Shown: piece by piece, positions 1-32,523 of the stretch | Layout: each line of letters begins with the position of its first letter | Numbering within the stretch: the stretch's first letter is position 1 | Assembly: GCA_013151775.1 (NCBI GenBank) | Contig: JAADHO010000164.1 | Span: 1-37,062 of the forward strand | Direction of reading: 5' to 3' | DNA from: Deltaproteobacteria bacterium | GTDB taxonomy: Bacteria; Myxococcota_A; Polyangia; Polyangiales; Houyiibacteriaceae | DNA: 37,062 bases | Position numbers and translations under genes: made by a program | Notes under the pieces: generated by a model | What the model saw: only the letters and a program-made list of their open reading frames with translations | The model's database searches: none | Told to the model about the DNA's origin: nothing

Positions 1-1740
1 GTCGACGACGGCAAGTCGACCCTGATCGGCCGCCTGCTGCACGACACGGGCATGGTCTATCAAGACCAACTCGACGCTGCGCAGCGCGCGAGCAAGCTCG
101 AGGGCGGCAAGCTCGACTTCTCGCTGCTCACCGACGGCCTCAAGGCTGAGCGCGAGCAGGGCATCACCATCGACGTCGCCTACCGCTACTTCGCGACGGA
201 GAAGCGCAAGTTCATCATCGCGGATACGCCCGGACACATTCAGTACACGCGCAACATGGTCACGGGCGCCTCCACCGCGAACGTGGCCTTGATCCTGATC
301 GACGCGCGCCTCGGTGTGCTCTCACAGTCGCGGCGACACGCCTACATCGCCAAGCTCCTGAGCATCCCGCACCTCGCCGTGTGCGTGAACAAGATGGATC
401 TCGTCGGCTACGATCAGCAGGTCTTCGAGCGCATCGCCAAGGAGTTCGGCGAGTTCGGTCGCGAGCTCGGCATCAAGGACGTGACCTTCTTCCCGGTGAG
501 CGCCCTCGAGGGCGACAATATCGTCAAGAACTCGCCCAAGACGCCTTGGTACGACGGGCCCCATGTGCTCGAGTATCTGGAGAGCGTGCCCGTCGCTGCC
601 GAGCGTGACCACGAGCACCTGCGCTTCCCCGTGCAGTACGTGATCCGTCCCGACCTCGACTACCGCGGCTTCGCGGGCGAGGTCGCCTCGGGCGTCATCA
701 AGCAGGGCGACGAGATCCTCGCGCTGCCCTCGGGCAAGCGCTCGAAGGTGCTCAGCATCGACACCTACGACGGTGCGCTCGAAGAGGCCTACACGCCCCA
801 AGCCGCCGTGATCCGCCTCGAAGACGAGATCGACGTCAGCCGCGGCGACATGCTCGTGCACCCGGACGACCTCCCGCGCGTGACCCGTGCCTTCGAGGCA
901 CATCTGGTGTGGATGAGCGAGGATCCGGCCGATCTCGAGAAGACCTATCTGCTCAAGCACACGTCGCAGACCGTGCGCGCGCAGCTCGACTCCATCACCT
1001 GGAAGAAGGACATGGACACGCTCGAGGAGCTGCCCGCCACGGGCCTCGAGCTGAACGACATCGCCCGGGTCCACGTGAGCTGTCAGCGCGCCCTCTACTG
1101 CGACGGCTACGAAGAGAACCGCAGCACCGGCGCCTTCATCGTGGTCGACTCACTGACCAACGACACGGTCGCCGCGGGCATGATCATCGAAGAAGATCGC
1201 TGTGAGCAGGATCTCGAGCACGTGCTCGGGGAGCTGCGTGCGGGCTCGGCCCTGACGCCCAAGACACAGGTCAGCGCCAAGGAGCGCGCCCACCGCATGG
1301 GTCAACGCGGCGCCACCGTCTGGCTCACGGGCCTGCCCGGCTCGGGCCGTTGGTCCCTCGCCTACATGCTGGAGCGGCGCCTCTTCGACCAAGGTCGCGC
1401 GGCCACGGTGGTGGACCCGACGGGTGAAGACCTGCGCTCGATGATCTCCGCCGCCAAGGCCTGTACCGAGGCGGGCCTGGTGACCATCTGCGCCTTCCCG
1501 AGCTACGGCAAGCAAGACCGCGCCGAGCTGCGCGAGCGCGTCGGTGGGGAGCGCGTGATCCAAGTCTACGTCAACACGGATCCGCAGCTCTGTCGTGAGC
1601 GACGACCCAACGCCGACTTCGAGGGCTTCGAGCCGCCGGACCACCCGGAGCTGACCATCGCCCTCGACAAGGTGCGAGTCGAGGCCGCCGCCAAGCTGAT
1701 CCTCAGCGCGCTGGCCGAACGCGGTCAGTTCGAGGCGTGA
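1..1740 (+). CDS. cysN: Sulfate adenylyltransferase large subunit (CysN GTPase) with degenerate C-terminal APS-kinase domain, 5'-truncated by window
   Basis: CysN is the GTPase subunit that powers ATP sulfurylase (with CysD) to make APS in sulfate assimilation. The frame is open from base 1, which falls inside the G1 P-loop (VDDGKST, residues 1-7 here), so roughly 20-30 residues lie upstream. Switch I is GITID (about 54-58), G3 is DTPGH (75-79) and G4 is NKMD (130-133). EF-Tu-like beta-barrel domains follow, to about residue 420. From about 437 the sequence resembles CysC (VWLTGLPGSG), but the P-loop reads GSGRWS instead of GSGKST. The DGDNxRxxL and FSxxDRxENxRR segments are missing, and the domain is only about 140 residues against about 200 normally. 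Sulfurylase activity looks intact; APS kinase activity looks lost. The next gene starts 16 bp downstream. Confidence 0.93.
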   Translation, partial: VDDGKSTLIGRLLHDTGMVYQDQLDAAQRASKLEGGKLDFSLLTDGLKAEREQGITIDVAYRYFATEKRKFIIADTPGHIQYTRNMVTGASTANVALILIDARLGVLSQSRRHAYIAKLLSIPHLAVCVNKMDLVGYDQQVFERIAKEFGEFGRELGIKDVTFFPVSALEGDNIVKNSPKTPWYDGPHVLEYLESVPVAAERDHEHLRFPVQYVIRPDLDYRGFAGEVASGVIKQGDEILALPSGKRSKVLSIDTYDGALEEAYTPQAAVIRLEDEIDVSRGDMLVHPDDLPRVTRAFEAHLVWMSEDPADLEKTYLLKHTSQTVRAQLDSITWKKDMDTLEELPATGLELNDIARVHVSCQRALYCDGYEENRSTGAFIVVDSLTNDTVAAGMIIEEDRCEQDLEHVLGELRAGSALTPKTQVSAKERAHRMGQRGATVWLTGLPGSGRWSLAYMLERRLFDQGRAATVVDPTGEDLRSMISAAKACTEAGLVTICAFPSYGKQDRAELRERVGGERVIQVYVNTDPQLCRERRPNADFEGFEPPDHPELTIALDKVRVEAAAKLILSALAERGQFEA

Positions 1741-1756
1741 GCAAGGCGCCGCTGCC

Positions 1757-2660
1757 GTGACCACCCGAGCCTCGTCCGCCGACCGCGCTGATGAGGCGAG
1801 CATCGGTGACGTCAGCCCGGCGGAGCGCGAGAAGCGCCGCTGGATGCTGGGCTCCACCTTCGTGAACTTGGCGCTCGCCCTCGGCAAGCTCGCCTGGGGT
1901 CTCGAGGTCGGCAGCCACGTCGTGCTGGCCGATGCCGTGCACAGCGCCTCGGACGTCTTCGGCGCCTTCCTCGTCTACCTCGCCGTGCGCTTCGCGCCCC
2001 ATCGCTCACGGCGCTTCCCGGACGGACTCTTCAAGCTCGAGGACATGGCGGCGCTGCTAGGCGGCGTCGGCGTGATCTTCGCAGGCTGGGAGATCATCCG
2101 CTCCGTCTTCCTCGCCGGAGCCGAGTCCGAGGCGCGCATGCCGCTTCAGACCTTGGCCTTCATGGGCGTCGTGCTGCTCGTGCAGATGATCTTCTATCGC
2201 TACGAGGATCGCGCCGCCAAGCGCCTCTCGTCGCCGGGGCTCGCCGCCGACGTGGTGAACTGGCTCGGCGACATCGGCGCGGGTGTGGTCGTCGTGGCGC
2301 AGCATGCTGCACGTACCCCACGCCCAAGAAGCCGCCGTCGCGGTGATCGTGCTGCTCGTCTTCCACGGCGCCTACGAGGTGATCAAGGGCGCGCTGCTCT
2401 CACTGCTCGACGCCGCCACCGCCGAGCAGGAGACGGCCACGGCGAGGGAGCTGCTCGAGCGCCACGCACGCGTGAATCACATCCACGATCTGAGGCTCAG
2501 ACGAGCGGGAGGCGCGCTGTTCCTGAACGCGACCCTGATCGTCGACGCCGCCGACTTCGAGACCGCCCACGAGGTCGTGGATGCGCTCGAACTCGCGCTG
2601 CGCGAGCGCATCCCACGCCTCGAAGGCGTCATGCTGCACTATGAACCCTCGCAGAGCTGA
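1757..2660 (+). pseudogene. Cation diffusion facilitator (CDF) metal transporter, frameshifted
   Basis: CDF proteins export divalent metals such as Zn2+, Mn2+ or Fe2+ in exchange for protons across the inner membrane. The first part (GTG start at 1757) shows the family signature: a membrane helix with ADAVHSASD, then FPDGLFKLED, further helices, and the second metal-site helix ADVVNWLGD. Near 2295-2312 the frame shifts: the conserved sequence continues in the frame two bases further on (MLHVPHAQEAA onward), giving the last membrane helix and the cytoplasmic metallochaperone-like domain, and ends at 2660. Removing one base in the gcgcagc stretch near 2298-2304 would restore one protein of about 300 residues, the usual CDF length. 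The break is therefore either a recent pseudogenising mutation or a sequence error. The close spacing to cysN suggests cotranscription. Confidence 0.82.
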
Positions 2661-4239: not shown

Positions 4240-5037
4240 CTACGAACGGGTCGCGCTCGAATGCGCGGTTGGCGCAGGTGCGGTTGGCGCAGGTGCGGTT
4301 GGCGCAGGCATCGGTTGGCGGACCTGGAGGCCCTGACGTATGTCATGTGCTGCCGCCGCCAAGAGACCACGCGCCATCTCGTCCGCCATCTCTCGGGCGA
4401 ATTCAACAGTCTCCGACGGATCCATGGGCGCTAGCCCAGCCTCGACTCGGATCTCGTATCGGCCGATCTTGACGGGTGCGAGCATCGATGTGTCATAGGA
4501 CATGACCATTTCATCATCCTGTTGCGAGCGAACGGGAGTCGGCTGCAGGTCAGTCACATCGTAGATCCGCATCTGCCACTGCATGGTCACGTATTCTTTG
4601 GTGACCGGTCCGCGGATAAAGAAGCACGCCGGAAAGAGCACGATTGAAGCGCACATGATGAGGGCCGCGGCTCGACCTCGATTCAACTCGCGAACGTCCG
4701 CAAAGTCGATTGCTCGAAACCTCACAACGTGCCGTGTCCCGCGCGGCGGGCTCGCAGAGTCTCGCTCCTCGAGGACGCGGCGCGCGACATTCATCCGAGG
4801 CAGGTTCGACTGCACGCCACGCTGCACCGCCGCGAAGAACGGCTCGAAATCCTCGGTGAGGATGTCGTTGTTTCTGGTCAAGTCCGCCATCACCAGGTCG
4901 CCACCTGAGTTCCGGGCACTCGGTACCAAAGACGTCGTGCGATAGATCTTCGATGTGTAACAGCCTGAAATGGACGCGACACAGAACAACACAAGTGCAC
5001 TGATGAACACATGTGCGAAATTCCCGCTCTTCGACAT
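4240..5037 (-). CDS. Putative lipoprotein of unknown function, lower-GC gene
   Basis: A protein of 265 residues with a classic lipoprotein signal peptide: basic N-terminus, hydrophobic core, and lipobox ISGC at about residues 23-26. The mature part is predicted periplasmic or outer-membrane-attached. A second hydrophobic stretch (about 130-147, ALIMCASIVLFPACFFI) may be a membrane segment. The C-terminus is a Pro/Ala/Thr tail made of five-residue repeats (PAPTA). A good Shine-Dalgarno (AGGAG, about 5043-5047) supports the ATG at 5037. The gene is clearly less GC-rich than its neighbours and uses A/T-ending codons freely, which suggests horizontal acquisition or relaxed selection. I recognise no family. 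Confidence 0.72.
   Translation of the reverse strand: MSKSGNFAHVFISALVLFCVASISGCYTSKIYRTTSLVPSARNSGGDLVMADLTRNNDILTEDFEPFFAAVQRGVQSNLPRMNVARRVLEERDSASPPRGTRHVVRFRAIDFADVRELNRGRAAALIMCASIVLFPACFFIRGPVTKEYVTMQWQMRIYDVTDLQPTPVRSQQDDEMVMSYDTSMLAPVKIGRYEIRVEAGLAPMDPSETVEFAREMADEMARGLLAAAAHDIRQGLQVRQPMPAPTAPAPTAPAPTAHSSATRS
4266..4310 (-). repeat. Three tandem 15-bp units in the lipoprotein 3' end
   Basis: Three head-to-tail copies of cggttggcgcaggtg (plus-strand reading) at 4266-4280, 4281-4295 and 4296-4310. The third differs only in its last two bases. On the coding strand they encode the PAPTA tail repeats of the lipoprotein ending at 4240. Near-identity at DNA level suggests recent expansion by slippage. 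Confidence 0.9.
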
Positions 5038-5406
5038 CTGCCTCTCCTATGCCATCCCCGTGGCCGAGGTTGGAACTCGTCTATCCACAACAGTAACCGT
5101 GGTGGCCGCTCCAGGCGTCACGTCAAGGACATCTGATCGCAACCTCGTGCCCTCCCGAAGTGAGAGTATGAGCCCTGACTCCGACGAGCCGCACGTATAC
5201 CACACGGCGCGCCGAGGGTCGCAAGCTTTTTGGGTCGACCGCGCGCCTGGGTATCTCGTACCAGGTCGACTGCGTGAAGGTGCTCGAGGAGAATTGAGAA
5301 CGCCGTTGGAATTTTGCAAGCGGCCGAGCGAGGAGACGACAGATCGAGGAGGCATCGACCATCCGAGGAGGCGTCCCCCATCGACCGCTCGATTCAGAAT
5401 ACACAC
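5038..5406. other. 369-bp intergenic region between cvfB-like gene and lipoprotein gene
   Basis: No gene is supported here. Short open frames exist on both strands but none has family resemblance, a good ribosome site or typical codon use. The region has lower GC than the surroundings. It holds the Shine-Dalgarno of the lipoprotein gene at its left edge, a short imperfect hairpin around 5247-5266 (ctgggta/taccag), two copies of GGTCGAC nearby, and a 19-bp tandem duplication at 5346-5383. A promoter for the lipoprotein gene is expected within it, but I cannot point to convincing boxes. Confidence 0.6.
5346..5383. repeat. 19-bp imperfect tandem duplication
   Basis: Two adjacent 19-bp units, 5346-5364 and 5365-5383, both beginning GAGGAGGC and sharing about 15 of 19 positions. 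They lie just downstream of the cvfB-like stop codon. No function is apparent. Confidence 0.6.
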
Positions 5407-17310: not shown

Positions 17311-17360
17311 CGGAGTGCTCCTTCGGCACACAATCTCCCAGACCCAAGAAATCTGTCCAA

Positions 17361-17386
17361 TGCATGTTATACAGTGTTGTCATGCA
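17361..17386. promoter_or_regulatory. Tandem degenerate TGCAT-N3-ATGCA sites over the lysR start
   Basis: TGCAT-GTT-ATACA (17361-17373) is immediately followed by GTGTT-GTC-ATGCA (17374-17386). Each is a partly degenerate copy of the perfect palindromes at 18322 and 18411. The first keeps the T-N11-A form of LysR boxes. Site two covers the probable lysR start codon (17382), and TATACA (17368-17373) resembles a -10 box, so binding here could block lysR expression. Confidence 0.5.
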
Positions 17387-18290
17387 CGGCATTCATCTTC
17401 GAAACGCTGACCTCAACCTGCTGGTCGTGCTTCGAGCGCTGCTCGAGACGCGCAGCGTCACGCAGGCGGCGGCGCAGCTTGGTGTCAGCCAGTCCGCGAC
17501 CAGCCACGCTCTGTCTCGCCTGCGCGTGCTCTTCGCAGATCCTCTGCTGGTGCGGAGCGGCCGAGGCATGACCACGACGCCGCGAGCCGACGCCCTGGAG
17601 CAGCCCCTCGGCCTGCACCTCGATGGCCTGGAGTTGCTGCTGCGACCGCAAGATGACTTCGACGTCTCCACGGTGCAGCGCACGTTTCGCATTGCGGGTG
17701 AGGACTACTTCTCGACCGTCGTGCTCCCGAACCTGCTGGCTCGCGTCGCCCCTCGAGCCCCCGGCGTCGTGGTGGAGATGCTGCCCAGGTCGCCGACTCC
17801 AGAGCGCGGGTTGGCGAATCGGGACTTCGACCTGCACGTGGGCGTGGTGAAAGCGAACGCCGCCGAAGCGTCGCGACGGCAGGTGCTGTTTACTGATGAC
17901 ATGGTCTGCGTGCTCCGCCACGGCCACCCAGCGGCGGGCGTGGAGCTGGATGTGAAGACCTACGCCGAGCTGGATCACGTGATGGTCGGGGTCGGCCCAC
18001 GAGGTCCAACGGGCGTCGACGACGAGCTCGCGAGACGCGGCCTCGAGCGCCGAATCGGCTGCCGCGTAGGGCATTTCGTGGCGGCACCGGCGGTCGTCGC
18101 GGAGACCGACATGGTGCTCACCTTGCCTCGGCGTCTGGCCCAGCGGTTCTGCGCCGGACATGGGCTGACCATCTTGGAGACCCCGTTGCCGCGTCTCCCC
18201 TTCCAGTACGCGCAATTCTGGCACGCGGCCATGCAACAAGACCCAGGCCATCGCTGGTTCCGTACCCAGGTGCGCCTAGCTGCAGCCTGA
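17382..18290 (+). CDS. LysR-family transcriptional regulator (NahR/NodD-like)
   Basis: A 302-residue regulator from ATG 17382; ATG 17364 would add six residues. The N-terminal winged helix is canonical: LRNADLNLLVVLRALLETRSVTQAAAQLGVSQSATSHALSRLR, then DPLLVRSGRGMTTTPRA, the pattern of the NahR/NodD branch. A two-lobed periplasmic-binding-type effector domain follows (about residues 90-300), with VVEMLPRSPTPERGLANRDFDLHVGV in the first lobe. It is divergent from the lipoprotein gene ending at 16702 and upstream of the 339-bp regulatory region. T-N11-A palindromes occur both at its own start and downstream, consistent with autoregulation and control of the DUF2339 operon. The effector is unknown. 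Confidence 0.9.
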   Translation: MHGIHLRNADLNLLVVLRALLETRSVTQAAAQLGVSQSATSHALSRLRVLFADPLLVRSGRGMTTTPRADALEQPLGLHLDGLELLLRPQDDFDVSTVQRTFRIAGEDYFSTVVLPNLLARVAPRAPGVVVEMLPRSPTPERGLANRDFDLHVGVVKANAAEASRRQVLFTDDMVCVLRHGHPAAGVELDVKTYAELDHVMVGVGPRGPTGVDDELARRGLERRIGCRVGHFVAAPAVVAETDMVLTLPRRLAQRFCAGHGLTILETPLPRLPFQYAQFWHAAMQQDPGHRWFRTQVRLAAA

Positions 18291-18321
18291 GTCGAAGAAT
18301 ACATTTTCTGCACAGCGCGCA

Positions 18322-18334
18322 TGCATGTCATGCA
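18322..18334. promoter_or_regulatory. Perfect palindrome, site A (T-N11-A LysR-type box)
   Basis: TGCATG-T-CATGCA is a perfect 6-1-6 inverted repeat, equivalent to TGCAT-GTC-ATGCA. It ends about 158 bp upstream of the sigma-54 -24 element at 18492. The T-N11-A form with dyad symmetry is the LysR-type recognition pattern, and the position also suits an upstream activating site for a sigma-54 activator. Confidence 0.65.
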
Positions 18335-18410
18335 CACATCCGACGCATCCCTGAAAGTATCCTGGAAGCTTTCGGAGGAAGCTTTCGGATCTGCTGCTGA
18401 AATGCGCTCT

Positions 18411-18429
18411 GCATGCATATCATGCATGC
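18411..18429. promoter_or_regulatory. Perfect palindrome, site B (T-N11-A LysR-type box)
   Basis: GCATGCAT-ATC-ATGCATGC is a perfect 8-3-8 inverted repeat containing the core TGCAT-ATC-ATGCA (18414-18426), the same core as site A with one spacer base changed. Its centre is 92 bp from that of site A and it ends 63 bp before the sigma-54 -24 element. Confidence 0.65.
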
Positions 18430-18491
18430 GTTTAATGAACACATTGCTCGAAGCATCCCAATTCATCCTGGAAGCTTTGGGGAGAAGCTGT

Positions 18492-18507
18492 TGGCACGAG
18501 TTTCGCT
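18492..18507 (+). promoter_or_regulatory. Candidate sigma-54 promoter (-24/-12)
   Basis: TGGCAC-gagtt-TCGCT matches the consensus TGGCAC-N5-TTGCW with a single change in the -12 block. The invariant GG (18493-18494) and GC (18505-18506) are exactly 10 bp apart. Transcription would start near 18518, about 110 bp before the DUF2339 gene. Confidence 0.5.
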
Positions 18508-18629
18508 GAAGCTTGGCGCATGCTCGCTCTTCTTCACCGCCGTGAGACTTCGAGCGCCATGGGCGCATTGCACGTACGCTCCGGCGAACGGGTCTGGGGT
18601 AGGCACGGTTCAGGACTGGGAGTCCACGC

Positions 18630-21600
18630 ATGAGTGACGGCGTCGCGGTGATGGTTGGCCTGATGGCCTGCTTCGTGCCCCTGGGCATGCTGGTGGCGTG
18701 GGTGGTCTACATCGCGCGCGTGTCAGGGCTCACGCAGCGGGTGCAGGAGCTGGAGGCCGAGGTCGCGCGCCTCGGTGGCGAGCAGCTCCAGACGACGCGC
18801 TACCTTCAGAGTCTCCACGCGAGGCTCGAAGCGGATGCGCTGACGACGCCTGCCGAGCCGGTCGAGCAATTCGCAGCGGCCACCGAAGAGCTGGAGGAGA
18901 CCGCGGCCCAGGCACAGATCGCGACACCGACCGACGCGCCAGCGGAGACGAAGCCCCCGCTCGAGTCCGACTCGGGCGAGCCCGTGCCCGAGACGCGAGC
19001 GCCAGTCCAGACGACGCGCCAAGCGCCCGACGAGGCGCAGGCGAGCCCAGCGCCTTCGGCCGACGCCCCGGTCGAGTCTACGGCTCCGGTCGAGTCTATG
19101 GCTCCCGTCGAGTCTACGCTCGAGTCTACGCCTCCGCTCGATCCCCAGCCCGAGGACGCGCCGAACCGAGCCACGCCCAGCAAACCGAGCATGGGTCTGG
19201 AGCAATGGATCGGCGTGCGCGGTGCCGCCGCTGCCGGTGCGATCCTGCTCGTGCTCTCCGCGCTCTACTTCTTCCAGTACTCCATCGAGCATGGGTTCGT
19301 GACGCCCGCGATGCGCATCCTCATCGGAGCCGTGCTGGGCCTCGGCTGCCTGCTCGCCGGCGAGCTACGCCTGCGCAAGACCCACATCACCCTGGCCAAC
19401 TGGCTGGACGGCGCGGGCATCGCCATCCTCTACATCACCATCTGGGCTGGGCGCAGCCTCTACGAACTCTATCCCCACTGGGCCGCCAGCCTCGGCATGC
19501 TGGCCATCACCGGCACCTGCGTCGCGCTCTCATCCAGAAGACGCTCGACGGTGATCGCCGCCCTCGGACTCTTCGGCGGATTCATCACTCCCCTCGCCCT
19601 CTCCACGGGCACCGATCGCCCCATTCCGCTCTTCGGCTATCTGCTGCTCTTGGACATCGCCATGCTCACGCTGGCACGCGCGCGACGTTGGTCCTGGCTC
19701 GCGCTGCTCAGCCTCGGCGGCACCTTCCTGTATCAGTTCGCGTGGCTCTCTTTCCGCCTGGACGAAGAGCGCCTCGTGCTCGGAGTCGGCATCTCCCTGG
19801 TCTTCGCGCTCGTCTTCAGTGCCTGGCCACGTCCTCGAGCGCGCGAGCAGAGCGAGACGCCAGGCCTCGGCTGGCAGCTGATGCGCACTGCGGGCCTCGT
19901 CCTACCCATGCTCTTCGCCTTCATCTTGGCCGTGCGCTCGGATCTCGGCGCACACTTCTGGCCTACGGCGGTGCAACTCGGCGTGCTCGCCCTGGCCGGC
20001 TCCGTGCTCTCCGCGCGGCAGAAGAACCCGCTCACGGGCATCACCATCGCGTGCTCCACGGCGGCGGTCCTGCTCGGCTGGGCGGTCGCGCATCCGCTGG
20101 TGAACCAAGCGCTGATGGCTCGCTGGGTGGGTCTGGTCGCAGCCCTCGGGGTGCTCATGCACATCGCCGGTGAGCTCGATCGCAGCGAGCTAGGCGCCGC
20201 GCGCATGGTGGCGTCGGTCGCACACGCGGCGTTCGCTGTGCTGATGGCGATCGTCACCATCACCAACGCCAGCGACTCTCCGTGGCCACAGCTCGCCTTC
20301 TTCGGACTGGCGACGCTGCTGGCCGCTCGAGCGGCCGCCTTCCCTCGAAGCCGACAGCTCCCCGTCGCCGTGGGCGGCCTGGGCGCCTTCGCCTTGGGCA
20401 GCGCCTTCGTGGTGAACGTGGGCGAGAGCTGGAGCACGTCTCCGACGCTGCTCGCCTCACTCTGGGTGGCCTTGGCGGCGCTCACACAGGTGGGCGGCGT
20501 GTGGCCTCGAGCACGACGGCTGCGGCACGCCTCGGATCACGCGGCGGTGGTCATTGCGGCCTTCTTCATCATCATCCTGCCGAGCGCCGAAGGTGTCTTG
20601 GGCGTGGCACCGGTCTACGCCTCCACGCTCGCGCTGGTGGTCCTGGGTCTCCTGGCTGCCACCCGACTCCGCAAGGGCCTGTGGATGGCGCCGATCCTCG
20701 GAGCGGCTCTGCTCGGTCACTTCAACGACCTGCAGGTCCACACGTCATCCTCGACCGCGACTCTGCAGCTCGCGGGCATGATGCTCAGCGTCGCCCTCTT
20801 CAGCGTCTGGCCGCTGCTCCTCGGACGACGCCGCGACGCCAACCATTTCCGCGTGGCCTCCTTGGCGGCCCCGCTCTACTTCCTGCTCATGCGCAGCGCC
20901 TGGCTGCGCGCCTTCGGTCCCGAAGCCCAAGGTCTCTTGCCCGTCGGCCTCGCGGTCGTCTCCCTCGGGCTCGCTGTCCTCGCGCGACGATCCCTGCGCG
21001 ACGAGAGCACCCTCGACGATCGAGCGACAAACCGCAGCGGGCTGATCTGGTCCTTGGTCGCCGCCACGTCGTTTCTCACCGTGGCCATCCCACTTCAGCT
21101 GGAGAACGAGTGGATCACCATCGGCTGGTCCCTCGAGGCGCTCGCGCTGCTCTTGCTCTTCCGGCGCTTCAGACACGCCGGACTCAAGTATCTCGCCGTG
21201 GCGCTCGCCTCCGCCGTGTTCATCCGCCTGGTCTTCAACCCCTACCTGCTCGAGTACCACCTGCGCGGCAGCCTGCGCGTCCTGAACTGGCTCTCCTACA
21301 CCTACCTCGTGCCCGTCGTCTGCTTGTTCGGCATGTGGCGCGTGCTGGCCAAGAGCGAGATCCCCCTGCGGCAATCCTGGGAGCACCCGATCTTCCCCAA
21401 GCGCGTCGCCGTGCTCGCTGCGCTGATGGCCTCGGCAGGCATCGTCGTGCTCTTCGCCTGGGTGAACCTCACGATCTTCGACGTCTTCGCCCCGGCCCGT
21501 GAGCTGACCATTCCCCTCGACCGCATGCCCGCCCGCGACCTCAGCCTCTCGCTCTCCTGGGCCGTCTTCGCCCTGGGCATGCTGGCCGTGGGGCTGTGGC

Positions 21601-21803
21601 GCCGGAGCATGCCCCTGCGCGTGGCGAGCCTGCTCTTGATCCTGCTGACCGCCGGCAAGACCTTCCTCTACGACCTCGGACACCTGTCCGATCTATATCG
21701 CGTGGCGTCGCTGGCCGGTCTCGCCGTCTCCCTGATCGTCATCTCACTGGTCTACCAACGCTTCGTCTTCCGCACTGAGAAGACCGAGGAGGAGTCCGCA
21801 TGA
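18630..21803 (+). CDS. DUF2339 family polytopic membrane protein
   Basis: A protein of 1057 residues. An N-terminal membrane helix (about 8-30) is followed by a short coiled coil (RVQELEAEVARLGGEQLQT). Next comes a long acidic Pro/Ala/Thr/Glu linker (about 65-185) that includes repeats of the type (A)PVES(T/M). The conserved entry motif LEQWIGVRGAAAAGAILLVLSALYFFQYSIEHGF begins the DUF2339 core, which runs to the C-terminus as more than 20 hydrophobic helices. The function of DUF2339 proteins is not established; they often sit beside DUF3999, as here. The ATG at 18630 has GGGAG seven bases upstream. The stop overlaps the next start (ATGA), so the two proteins are translationally coupled. Likely an inner-membrane envelope component. 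Confidence 0.88.
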   Translation: MSDGVAVMVGLMACFVPLGMLVAWVVYIARVSGLTQRVQELEAEVARLGGEQLQTTRYLQSLHARLEADALTTPAEPVEQFAAATEELEETAAQAQIATPTDAPAETKPPLESDSGEPVPETRAPVQTTRQAPDEAQASPAPSADAPVESTAPVESMAPVESTLESTPPLDPQPEDAPNRATPSKPSMGLEQWIGVRGAAAAGAILLVLSALYFFQYSIEHGFVTPAMRILIGAVLGLGCLLAGELRLRKTHITLANWLDGAGIAILYITIWAGRSLYELYPHWAASLGMLAITGTCVALSSRRRSTVIAALGLFGGFITPLALSTGTDRPIPLFGYLLLLDIAMLTLARARRWSWLALLSLGGTFLYQFAWLSFRLDEERLVLGVGISLVFALVFSAWPRPRAREQSETPGLGWQLMRTAGLVLPMLFAFILAVRSDLGAHFWPTAVQLGVLALAGSVLSARQKNPLTGITIACSTAAVLLGWAVAHPLVNQALMARWVGLVAALGVLMHIAGELDRSELGAARMVASVAHAAFAVLMAIVTITNASDSPWPQLAFFGLATLLAARAAAFPRSRQLPVAVGGLGAFALGSAFVVNVGESWSTSPTLLASLWVALAALTQVGGVWPRARRLRHASDHAAVVIAAFFIIILPSAEGVLGVAPVYASTLALVVLGLLAATRLRKGLWMAPILGAALLGHFNDLQVHTSSSTATLQLAGMMLSVALFSVWPLLLGRRRDANHFRVASLAAPLYFLLMRSAWLRAFGPEAQGLLPVGLAVVSLGLAVLARRSLRDESTLDDRATNRSGLIWSLVAATSFLTVAIPLQLENEWITIGWSLEALALLLLFRRFRHAGLKYLAVALASAVFIRLVFNPYLLEYHLRGSLRVLNWLSYTYLVPVVCLFGMWRVLAKSEIPLRQSWEHPIFPKRVAVLAALMASAGIVVLFAWVNLTIFDVFAPARELTIPLDRMPARDLSLSLSWAVFALGMLAVGLWRRSMPLRVASLLLILLTAGKTFLYDLGHLSDLYRVASLAGLAVSLIVISLVYQRFVFRTEKTEEESA

Positions 21804-23992
21804 GTTCCAAGATCCACCGCGCCGCCCTGGCGCTCCTGCTCGGGCTGCTCGCGCTGCCTTCGACCCAGGCTCAGCCAGCCACCTCGGATCCAGCGGACGC
21901 ATCTCGGGTCTTCCCCTACGAAGCACCAATTCGGGACATGACTGCGGGCGGCGTGGCGCGCCTACCCATCCCAGCGGCCGTGCTCGCCGAGGCCGCACCG
22001 AACCTCGCCGACGTGCGCATCCACGACGCGAACGGGGAAGAGCTGCCCTATTTGATCGACAGCGACGCGCGGCCGGCCCGCGGAGAGCCGACGCCGCGCG
22101 AGCTCGATGCCACCATCCTGAACACCAGCCGGCGCATCGAGGGAGCGGAATCTCAGGCGCCGATCTACATCGAACGTTTCGAGCTGTCGCCGCCTCGCGT
22201 CGAGAGCGAGCTGGCAGACGGATCGTGGTCGAGGCGTCGTTGGGCGCTGGTCTTCGCCACTCCTCGCGACCGCTTCGTGGCCCAGGTCGTGGTGACGTGG
22301 GCCGCCATGGAGCGCCAGATGCCCCTGGCCGAAGGCTCGATCTATCGCTTCCCCTCACCCGAACGCAGTGGGCTCACGCTGCCCCTCGAATTCGCGCCCG
22401 AGCAGCCCGAGGAGGACGCTCGCGTCGTGGTCGAGATTCGCGGTGGGGACGGCTACCTCGAACCCACGCTGCGCTTCCGCAGCCACACCTCCCAAGACTC
22501 TCCGCCAACGTTGACGATCCCCCTCGAAGAGTCGCTGCGAACTTCGGAGAACGGAAAGACGACGATCCATCTCATCCGTCCGCAAGGGATCGTGCCGGAT
22601 CGACTCCAGATCAGCACGACCACAGCGAACTTCCATCGCGACGTCCGCGTGCTCGACGTGGCACAGGGCCAGGCCCCATCGACCATCGGTCACGGACTCG
22701 CCTATCGACTGCGGGAGGTCCGCGACGCCGAAGAGCTCAGCATCCCCCTGCTGCGCGCCTCGGGTCAGACGCTCACGGTCGAGATCGAAGACGAAGACAG
22801 CCCTCCGCTGGATGGGCTCCACTTCTCCGTGGAGGTGACGCAGCCGGTGTTGGTGTTCACGGGAGTCGAGCGCGCGATGTTGCGCTTCGGCGGTGGGCGT
22901 GTGCGCGCGCCGCGCTATGACCTGATGGGGATCCGTTCGAGCCTCACCGACGGATCGGGCGCTGAGCGTGCGCGGGTTCGGCTGGGCGAGATCCGCCCGA
23001 ACCCGAGCTTCGACGCCGGGCCAGCGCTCGCCTTCGCGCTGACCGCCGGACGGCCCGTGGCTCTGCGTGACTTCGCCTATCGCGCCAAGATTCGCGTCAC
23101 GGGCGCAAGCGAAGGACTCTCCCGGGTGGACCTCAGCCCGGAGGTGTTGGCGGGCGCCAACGACGCGTTGCACGACCTGCGCGTGGTCGACGCAGACGGT
23201 CGACAGCGCCCCTACGTGTTGGGCGCCGAAGAATCACAGACGCTCGAGCTGCGAGTGCCGAGCGCCGAGGTGCAAGGCGAGAACTCCGTCTACGAGCTGA
23301 CACTTCCCGCGTCACCGCTGCGCGTGAGCCGACTTACGCTCGACACAGACGCGAGCTTCCTGGCGCGCCGTCTTCGGGTCACGGGCACCTTGGAGAACGG
23401 ACGCGTGGCGACGCTGATGAACACCTTCCTCGCGCGCCCGCCCGACACCCACGAGCCGCTGGTGGTCGAGCTCAACACGGCACGCGTGCGCGACCTCCGA
23501 CTCGAGTTCGACGACGGTGGAGACGCACCCATCGAGCTCTCGCGCGTCAGCCTGGAGGTCGTCGGCTCACCGCTCTTCCTCGTCGCGCCCGACGGAGACT
23601 ACACGCTCTACTTCGGCGACCCGGGGCTTCAGGCGCCCGTATACGAGCTGAGCCGAGCCCGCGCCTTGGTGCTCTCCCTGCCCGCCGCGACGACCGAACT
23701 CGGAGCGCTCGAGCGCAACCCGGCGCACGTGCCACCTGCCTGGTACGAGGGCGCGGACGGTCAGGCGTGGTTGGTCTGGAGCGTGCTGATCTTGGCGCTC
23801 TTGGTGCTCGTCGTGTTGACCTTACGCGTGGTCCGAAGCGAGCCCGAGGAGGAGCCCGACGATCCACGAACGACCGAGACGACCAAGACGACGACCTCGT
23901 CCACAGATCCCGCGAGCGACCCGGCGCAGACCAAAGGCGAAACCGAGGGAGAGCACGACAAACACGATGGACACACGGAGTCCGACGGGTGA
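21800..23992 (+). CDS. DUF3999 family membrane-anchored periplasmic protein
   Basis: A 730-residue protein coupled to the DUF2339 gene. A signal peptide (about 1-24, ALALLLGLLALPSTQAQP) leads to a large beta-rich periplasmic region. Its opening FPYEAPIRDMTAGGVARLPIPAAVLAEAAPNLADVRIHDANGEELPY is the typical DUF3999 beginning. Internal beta-sandwich-like segments include LRVSRLTLDTDASFLARRLRV and RDLRLEFDDGG. A single C-terminal membrane helix (about 655-678, LVWSVLILALLVLVVLTLRVV) ends in a short cytoplasmic tail rich in Glu, Asp and Thr with a few His. The topology fits a periplasmic partner of the DUF2339 membrane protein; the molecular role is unknown. Confidence 0.86.
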   Translation: MSSKIHRAALALLLGLLALPSTQAQPATSDPADASRVFPYEAPIRDMTAGGVARLPIPAAVLAEAAPNLADVRIHDANGEELPYLIDSDARPARGEPTPRELDATILNTSRRIEGAESQAPIYIERFELSPPRVESELADGSWSRRRWALVFATPRDRFVAQVVVTWAAMERQMPLAEGSIYRFPSPERSGLTLPLEFAPEQPEEDARVVVEIRGGDGYLEPTLRFRSHTSQDSPPTLTIPLEESLRTSENGKTTIHLIRPQGIVPDRLQISTTTANFHRDVRVLDVAQGQAPSTIGHGLAYRLREVRDAEELSIPLLRASGQTLTVEIEDEDSPPLDGLHFSVEVTQPVLVFTGVERAMLRFGGGRVRAPRYDLMGIRSSLTDGSGAERARVRLGEIRPNPSFDAGPALAFALTAGRPVALRDFAYRAKIRVTGASEGLSRVDLSPEVLAGANDALHDLRVVDADGRQRPYVLGAEESQTLELRVPSAEVQGENSVYELTLPASPLRVSRLTLDTDASFLARRLRVTGTLENGRVATLMNTFLARPPDTHEPLVVELNTARVRDLRLEFDDGGDAPIELSRVSLEVVGSPLFLVAPDGDYTLYFGDPGLQAPVYELSRARALVLSLPAATTELGALERNPAHVPPAWYEGADGQAWLVWSVLILALLVLVVLTLRVVRSEPEEEPDDPRTTETTKTTTSSTDPASDPAQTKGETEGEHDKHDGHTESDG

Positions 23993-25301: not shown

Positions 25302-27092
<1,791 letters not shown>

Positions 27093-31407: not shown

Positions 31408-32523
31408 ATGCAGATCAGGCACTTGGCTCACTCGCACGCCTCGAGAGGTGGTCTCGTGCTCATGGCGCTGATGTCCGCTTGTGGACAAAGTCATGCCCTG
31501 CCGCCCGTGGACGCGGGCGTCGACGCCACGCTGGCGATGGACAGCTCTCCTCCGCCGCTGCCGGACGCGGCCATCGACAGCTCTCCTCCGCCGCTGCCAG
31601 ACGCAGCGATCGACAGCTCTCCGCCGCCGCTGCCAGACGCGGCCATCGACAGCTCTCCGCCGCCGCCGGTGGACGCAGCGATCGACAGCTCACCGCCGCC
31701 TTCGTGCGATACGCTGGAGCCCTCGAGGACCTTCGTGATCGATCGAATGGACGTCGGCCGAGAGGATCCCGTCGGCGTCTCGTCGGGCTACGACCTCGAC
31801 ACGCGGGTGAGTGACGACACGGACCCGGCAGGTTGCTATCAGCCGGACTTCACCTCCCCCAGCGGCACACCGGGCATCGACAACCAATTCGCCGTACTGG
31901 CACCCTCGCTCGAGAGCGCCGCTGGCGTAGACCTGGCCGCCAGCATCGCGAGCAGCATCGCGGACGGCTCGCTCCTGATCCTTCCCGTACTCGAGAACCT
32001 CGACGACAATTTCAACGACGACTGCGTCAACCTCACGCTCTTGCTCGGGAGGGTGCCTGGCGGCGGTGCACCCATACTGGGCACGACAGGCACGCTGGCG
32101 GAAGATCAGACCTTCGACATCGACCCCAACTCCTTCGACGCCTCGGGAGCACCGCTCATGCACGCAGCGGGCGCGACCCTCGTCGACGGCCATCTACAGG
32201 CGGGTCCGCTGGAGATCGCCCTGGTACTGCCCGTCGGCGCCAGCGCGCTGAGCCTCAACATCCATCAGGCGATCATCAGCTTCGATCTCGCGCCCGATGG
32301 CTCAGCCTTCCGCAACGGTGTGCTCGGTGGCGACATCGTCGTCGAGGAGCTGGTCGCCTCCGTCGTCGCCTTCGGCGGAGGCCTTCCGGTAGGCCTGGTA
32401 CGGAACGCGCTGTTCAGCACGGCAGACCTCGCGCCGGACGCCGCGGGCGACTGCCAATCCGTCTCGGTGACGCTGGTCTTGAGCGCCATCCCCGCCAGAC
32501 AAGGCGTCATCGCGGCGCCCTGA
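31408..32523 (+). CDS. Putative lipoprotein with DSSPPPLPDAAI-repeat stalk
   Basis: A 371-residue protein from ATG 31408, six bases after AGGGAGG; the same frame upstream is spurious. The signal peptide ends in LMSAC (Cys about residue 25). A stalk made of four tandem 12-residue units and a partial fifth (about residues 45-97) follows, Pro/Asp/Ser rich. The body (about 105-371) is beta-rich with FVIDRMDVG, GIDNQFAVLAPSLES, NLTLLLGR, a Gly-rich VVAFGGGLPVGL and a final VTLVLSAIPA. A cysteine pair may be disulfide-bonded. No family is recognised; the design matches the surface lipoproteins at 6310 and 11281. It is divergent from the membrane kinase and convergent with preA. Confidence 0.75.
   Translation: MQIRHLAHSHASRGGLVLMALMSACGQSHALPPVDAGVDATLAMDSSPPPLPDAAIDSSPPPLPDAAIDSSPPPLPDAAIDSSPPPPVDAAIDSSPPPSCDTLEPSRTFVIDRMDVGREDPVGVSSGYDLDTRVSDDTDPAGCYQPDFTSPSGTPGIDNQFAVLAPSLESAAGVDLAASIASSIADGSLLILPVLENLDDNFNDDCVNLTLLLGRVPGGGAPILGTTGTLAEDQTFDIDPNSFDASGAPLMHAAGATLVDGHLQAGPLEIALVLPVGASALSLNIHQAIISFDLAPDGSAFRNGVLGGDIVVEELVASVVAFGGGLPVGLVRNALFSTADLAPDAAGDCQSVSVTLVLSAIPARQGVIAAP
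31540..31704 (+). repeat. Tandem 36-bp repeats encoding the lipoprotein stalk
   Basis: Units of 36 bp begin at 31540, 31576, 31612 and 31648, with a partial fifth from 31684. Units 1-3 differ from each other at only a few synonymous positions; unit 4 changes LPDAAI to PVDAAI. High DNA identity suggests recent expansion or ongoing length variation. Confidence 0.92.

Follow-up and report, generated by a model that had tools for sequence, protein, structure and literature searches.

Structure of the duplicated block

In the window analysed here, i.e. the whole stretch of 37,062 nucleotides of contig JAADHO010000164.1 (assembly GCA_013151775.1; C48 in our numbering), two neighboring palindromes are each followed by the same short module. 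This raises the question of what the two units are and whether the retained order of their parts points to a function. The block is intergenic: the upstream gene, encoding a LysR-type regulator (17382..18290, plus strand), ends at 18290, and the downstream gene, encoding a predicted DUF2339 membrane protein (18630..21803, plus strand), starts at 18630 and is followed by the gene of a DUF3999 protein (21800-23992). Palindromes (P) and modules carrying a 14-bp core (H) alternate in the order P1-H1-P2-H2 at 18318-18483. P1 (CGCATGCATGTCATGCAC) is located at 18318..18335 and P2 (GCATGCATATCATGCATGC) at 18411..18429. The modules lie on the plus strand, H1 (CCCTGAAAGTATCCTGGAAGCTTTCGGAGG) at 18349..18378 and H2 (TCCCAATTCATCCTGGAAGCTTTGGGGA) at 18456..18483. 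The final 13 bases of H1 are tandemly repeated, reaching 18389.

A first-pass annotation of this DNA had described a duplicated palindrome-plus-module unit in which each palindrome precedes identical ordered blocks including an exact 14-bp match. This description was borne out. Each palindrome is followed by ACACAT, CGA(C/A)GCATCCC and the 14-mer ATCCTGGAAGCTTT, which is exact in both units (18359-18372 and 18465-18478). The alignment of unit 1 with unit 2 scored 67, whereas 1000 dinucleotide shuffles gave 18 +/- 3.3 with a maximum of 33. The 17-mer module matched twice in the window with 0.03 matches expected, and the palindrome pattern (≤3 mismatches) nine times with 2.0 expected, a number equalled in 0 of 100 shuffles. 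The constant offset of 106–109 bp claimed earlier holds for the blocks past the palindromes (105–108 bp) but not for the palindromes themselves, which are offset by 92 bp; unit 2 has about 14 additional bases between P and H relative to unit 1.

Furthermore we noticed features absent from the earlier annotation. The unit runs on into a -24/-12-type promoter at 18492-18507, and a third, weaker palindrome-like site (P0, ATACATTTTCTGCACAG) is located at 18299-18315. An additional palindrome cluster without H spans the LysR gene start (17356..17396). Among other candidate signals, no intrinsic terminator was found at the site, and the sole sigma-70-like match, on the minus strand at 18331-18303, faces away from the DUF2339 gene. 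Elsewhere in the window a 36-bp tandem repeat (31528-31700; 4.8 copies, 88% matches) overlaps long predicted frames. Overall the duplication is genuine and partly regulatory, and it combines known kinds of component in an unusual way.

A putative sigma-54 promoter and its proposed activator sites

The proposed sigma-54 promoter (TGGCACGAGTTTCGCT, 18492..18507, plus strand) shows the -24 GG and -12 GC at the expected spacing and has one mismatch to TGGCACGNNNNTTGC: its -12 element reads TCGC, not TTGC. TCGC is also found in the relatives G004, G008 and G032. Only one other such promoter match occurs in the window. The predicted transcription start lies at about 18518. P2 is located about 65–80 bp and P1 about 160–175 bp from the -24 element, both in the range of about 65–200 bp upstream in which dyad sites of sigma-54 activators are looked for. 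Sigma-54 activators are present in this genome. One of them, with an FHA domain, is encoded within the window itself (25302-27092, minus strand).

The activator of interest, P0004, is encoded on another contig, C250 (L054:3685-5148, minus strand), divergently from a gene for an LplT-like MFS/acyltransferase protein. It matches Sigma54_activat with E 4e-43 and contains the GAFTGA motif and a conserved HTH; its N-terminal region of about 160 residues is conserved and has no Pfam match. Among 179 genomes of the order, 42 contain relatives of P0004 at E ≤ 1e-60. Upstream of activator orthologues, the palindrome motif RTGYAYNNNRTGYAY seen in P1 recurs: of 27 relatives, 13 have P (≤1 mismatch) together with a -24/-12 promoter (≤2 mismatches). 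The promoter, counted by itself, is present in 16 of the 27 upstream regions, where background would give about 0.75. P is a short, degenerate motif and is absent upstream of several orthologues (G034, G180, G174, G178, G003, G007). Two MAGs show the same arrangement, one of Sandaracinus, which in our data looks the same as G004, and one labelled Methylococcaceae. The weaker P0 resembles TGTACATTCTATGTAC upstream of the G059 orthologue and is a possible third activator site. Targets beside the orthologues encode LplT-like, YiaAB or weakly PspA-like proteins, the PspA_IM30-like ones scoring 24.7 and 32.3 bits, below the Pfam cut-off of 33.9.

H did not follow this pattern. It was detected in 0 of the 25 activator upstream regions of relatives that were checked, and matches to CCTGGAAG in three relatives' regions fall within the target gene. 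Conservation in relatives, which the first-pass annotation had named as a check, thus extends to P and the promoter at the activator's locus and not to H. From these data we infer that P1 and P2 are upstream activating sites and that 18492-18507 is a promoter. The claim that the block is regulatory rather than coding is supported by the palindromes, which precede a sigma-54 promoter and match activator sites conserved in relatives.

The neighboring LysR-type regulator is a rival candidate for binding the palindromes, which would then be operators controlling its own gene and the DUF2339 genes. LysR-type regulators bind sites following a T-N11-A rule. The 13-bp TGYA-N5-TGYA form of the palindromes agrees with it, one palindrome cluster covers the LysR start and two further palindromes lie just downstream of the gene. 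However, the examined flanks of the P loci on C250, C290, C236, C76 and C345 contain no LysR gene, the motif is located upstream of only one of 19 LysR homologues, and it is conserved beside the sigma-54 activator instead. We therefore regard operators of the LysR-type regulator as quite improbable and assign the palindromes provisionally to P0004.

Paralogy with the activator locus

About 260 bp of the window are paralogous to the promoter region of the activator and lplT-like genes on C250 (score 121 compared with 27 +/- 4). The similarity takes in P, H1, P2, H2, TGGCACGANTTTCGCT and GCATGCT, and P0 aligns with ATACATTTTTCGTACAT of the C250 paralogue. H1 and H2 hold their places in both promoters. 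Downstream of the predicted start, a leader frame of 37 aa beginning MLALLHRRE (18520..18632, plus strand) resembles MLALLRSRRFAPLF at the lplT-like gene starts of relatives, which suggests that the promoter was copied along with first codons; the frame would be a probable remnant of them. Its stop overlaps the DUF2339 start (ATGA), which is weak evidence because 36% of shuffles stay open.

The window thus probably holds a duplicated promoter region including the first codons of an lplT-like gene, now in front of an unrelated DUF2339 gene, with copying presumably directed from the activator locus to the window. The first-pass annotation had taken the retained order of the blocks to imply function. 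Since the whole region of about 260 bp is paralogous to another promoter region, we attribute this order to descent.

Module H is a dispersed REP-like hairpin

The unit had been described as not being a known element. For the module this could not be upheld: H is a dispersed, transposase-linked REP-like hairpin. Genome-wide counts are based on a genome search plus about 0.8 Mb of DNA read directly. The genome contains ten exact matches to the core CCTGGAAGCTTT, and the covariance model yielded about 18–20 copies, the weakest with E near 0.02–0.3 (H1: E 7e-7; H2: E 2e-8). Most copies are intergenic. In 33 other genomes of the family neither the exact core nor the covariance model revealed a convincing copy; the one extra exact match, in G022, was judged to be chance from the count. 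Units resembling H, repeating every 27 bp and apparently located within a reading frame, were also noticed (L062 ~5023-5080; G000:C201:24022-24076).

H is a short, imperfectly palindromic sequence that can fold into a hairpin. The copies have in common a loop around YCCTGGAAG; their stems differ in sequence, partly with compensation (AAT/ATT at C236, AAGG/CCTT at C194 and C152). Across the copies 81% of stem cells are paired and some changes are compensatory; the covariation statistics are moderate and not decisive. Single copies fold weakly to moderately, several of them only weakly (H1: -10.2 kcal/mol, z -2.2). The tetranucleotide GT[AG]G at the hairpin foot is absent from the aligned copies, and we therefore call H REP-like and not a canonical REP.

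It had further been proposed that several blocks are functional, possibly as co-factor sites or an RNA structure. Some of our observations are compatible with a leader RNA structure or small RNA made up of H and P together: the plus strand at 18300-18520 folds better than shuffles (z -2.67), and there is the covariation in the stems, but palindromes by themselves would raise the folding score. Rfam gave no match up to E 1. Some copies of H have a palindrome nearby and others do not, and H can point either way with respect to genes, which leaves a role of the module as co-factor site or RNA structure without support. Because of this mixed orientation and of a predicted transcription start downstream of all blocks we reject the leader RNA, which we consider highly unlikely, and retain the reading of H as a dispersed repeat.

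H is linked to Y1 transposases

H adjoins all five 3’ ends of transposase genes (REP-associated, Y1 type) found in this genome. A Pfam Y1_Tnp search of the genome gave two matches above the cut-off. The transposase on C203, P0002, comprises 356 aa and scores 27.1 bits for Y1_Tnp (cut-off 23). It carries the HUH motif as HMH at 122-124, W160, and Y181 within YTLRNP (YxxxNP). Against NCBIfam REP_Tyr_transpos it reached E 7e-20, its 71.4 bits being below the curated cut-off of 80. Copies of H flank this gene on both sides in inverted orientation, as is typical of RAYT genes, and AATTCATCCTGGAAGC is common to H2 and the copies adjoining it. The end of a related gene is located at C194 (67% identity over 72 residues). 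The ends of contigs C37, C152 and C380 carry the same last 14 residues, and the gene end is recognised there by these 14 residues only. At C37, C152, C194 and C380, H is located about 150–200 bp past the 3’ end of the transposase gene; counted from the stop, the distance is about 175–200 bp. A scan of the genome contigs with P0002 alone gave no matches. The second Y1 transposase (L162, G000:C439; gene 778-1911, minus strand) is different, and the inverted repeat that flanks it, TTGGGGACGGTCCTAAGCAGTTAAGTT, bears no relation to H.

Relatives of P0002 in other genera (39–49% identity) are flanked by their own repeats, and in most of these the core reads YTGG[AC]A: G034 has GTGTTGGAAGCTTTTGG, G059 has GCGGCCTGGCAGG, GCGGCCTGGAAGC and ACGTCCCTGGCATG, and G008 (36%), among others, has ACGGTGGCACGTTCC. 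The pattern agrees with a published rule by which each TnpA_REP has a single repeat family (PMC6006769, PMC2817692). The related repeat of G034 is restricted to the transposase locus of that genome. G059 has ten matches to the P0002 family, and each one read has a different flanking repeat family (e.g. L167, L187, L196, L197). TGGCAC, the letters of the sigma-54 -24 element, occurs inside several relatives' repeat cores (G008, G058, G059; L172, L168, L187), probably by coincidence. Taken together, H is a dispersed, non-autonomous hairpin-type repeat linked to the Y1 transposases of this genome, and its distribution suggests that it is, or was, mobile.

Co-occurrence of P and H

The palindrome pattern TGYAYNNNATGYAY has 22 matches in 6.05 Mb (reversed control: 10). 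At six loci a match is close to an H: C48 (18321 and 18413), C250, C290, C236, C76 and C345, the last found via its palindrome and having a degenerate H beside it. About 1 kb separates the match at the LysR start (17360) from an H. Most other matches look coding; two stray ones, at C124 and C250:12565, were judged by eye to be operators, the former probably of an antitoxin gene and the latter of ArsR type, and do not explain the window. In the DNA 3’ of H at P loci likeness is mostly at motif level only. No good sigma-54 promoter was found at the P-H loci on C290, C236, C76 and C345.

Hairpins of the H-P(-H) type carrying activator sites to these six loci would explain why P and H occur together there. 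We consider such a mobile enhancer a doubtful but not negligible proposition. If this is so, genes would come under an envelope-stress regulon by way of a REP-like element, and bacterial enhancers would be spreading on a mobile repeat. The same co-occurrence, together with the retained positions of H1 and H2 in both paralogous promoters, could be read differently, with H as a functional protein-binding site of the regulon instead of a passenger and its transposase-side copies secondary. We think this unlikely: relatives' activator promoters have P and the -24/-12 elements without H, H occurs without P at C203, C37, C194, C152 and C380, and all transposase 3’ ends found carry it.

The interpretation we favor, and consider likely, is a composite, a duplicated sigma-54 regulatory region with H1 and H2 embedded in it as copies of the REP-like family. 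Judged from sequence, the window copy would derive by duplication from the DNA that separates the activator gene from its divergent lplT/acyltransferase-like target. P0004 would bind P1, P2 and perhaps the weaker P0 as upstream activating sites and, by looping of the DNA, contact sigma-54 polymerase at 18492-18507. It would thereby turn on the genes of the DUF2339 and DUF3999 membrane proteins, probably as part of a phage-shock-like response to envelope stress. For a family of sigma-54 activators that occurs in much of the order, the analysis proposes a candidate regulon consisting of activator site, promoter and targets. In the window a promoter region has apparently been copied before an unrelated membrane-protein gene. 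The REP-like family described here has the loop as its constant part, and other genomes contain related transposases and repeats.

Comparison with known systems

The proposed regulatory part resembles the E. coli psp system (pspF||pspA / pspG), in which the activator gene is likewise divergent from its target, the shared region contains more than one UAS and a -24/-12 promoter, a second target promoter is located remotely, and the target genes are of the membrane-stress type (PMC3709507, PMC11237479). Unlike the E. coli system, P0004 has the N-terminal region of about 160 residues without Pfam match, the target in this genome is LplT/acyltransferase-like with PspA-like or YiaAB targets only in relatives, and REP-like hairpins lie between the activator sites.

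REP/RAYT (TnpA_REP) systems, or REPtrons, consist of short, mainly intergenic hairpins, inverted copies of which flank the transposase gene, with one family per transposase (PMC2817692, PMC6006769). H shares the dispersed hairpins and the inverted copies flanking a transposase gene. In contrast to REPs it has no GT[AG]G foot, its loop region is constant, it exists in about 20 copies and not in the more than 100, up to hundreds, usual for REPs, and its pair in the window is in direct instead of inverted orientation. Flanking structures without the GT[AG]G foot and with copies elsewhere in the genome are also known from the atypical TnpA_Y1 subclass 2.6 and class 3; P0002 (356 aa, SHMH / WA / YTLRNP) fits none of the tabulated TnpA_Y1 subclasses exactly (PMC6006769). 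Classical REPINs (inverted REP doublets) likewise consist of two hairpins about 100 bp apart (PMC3116915); unlike in REPINs, H1 and H2 are oriented alike, and an activator site lies between them.
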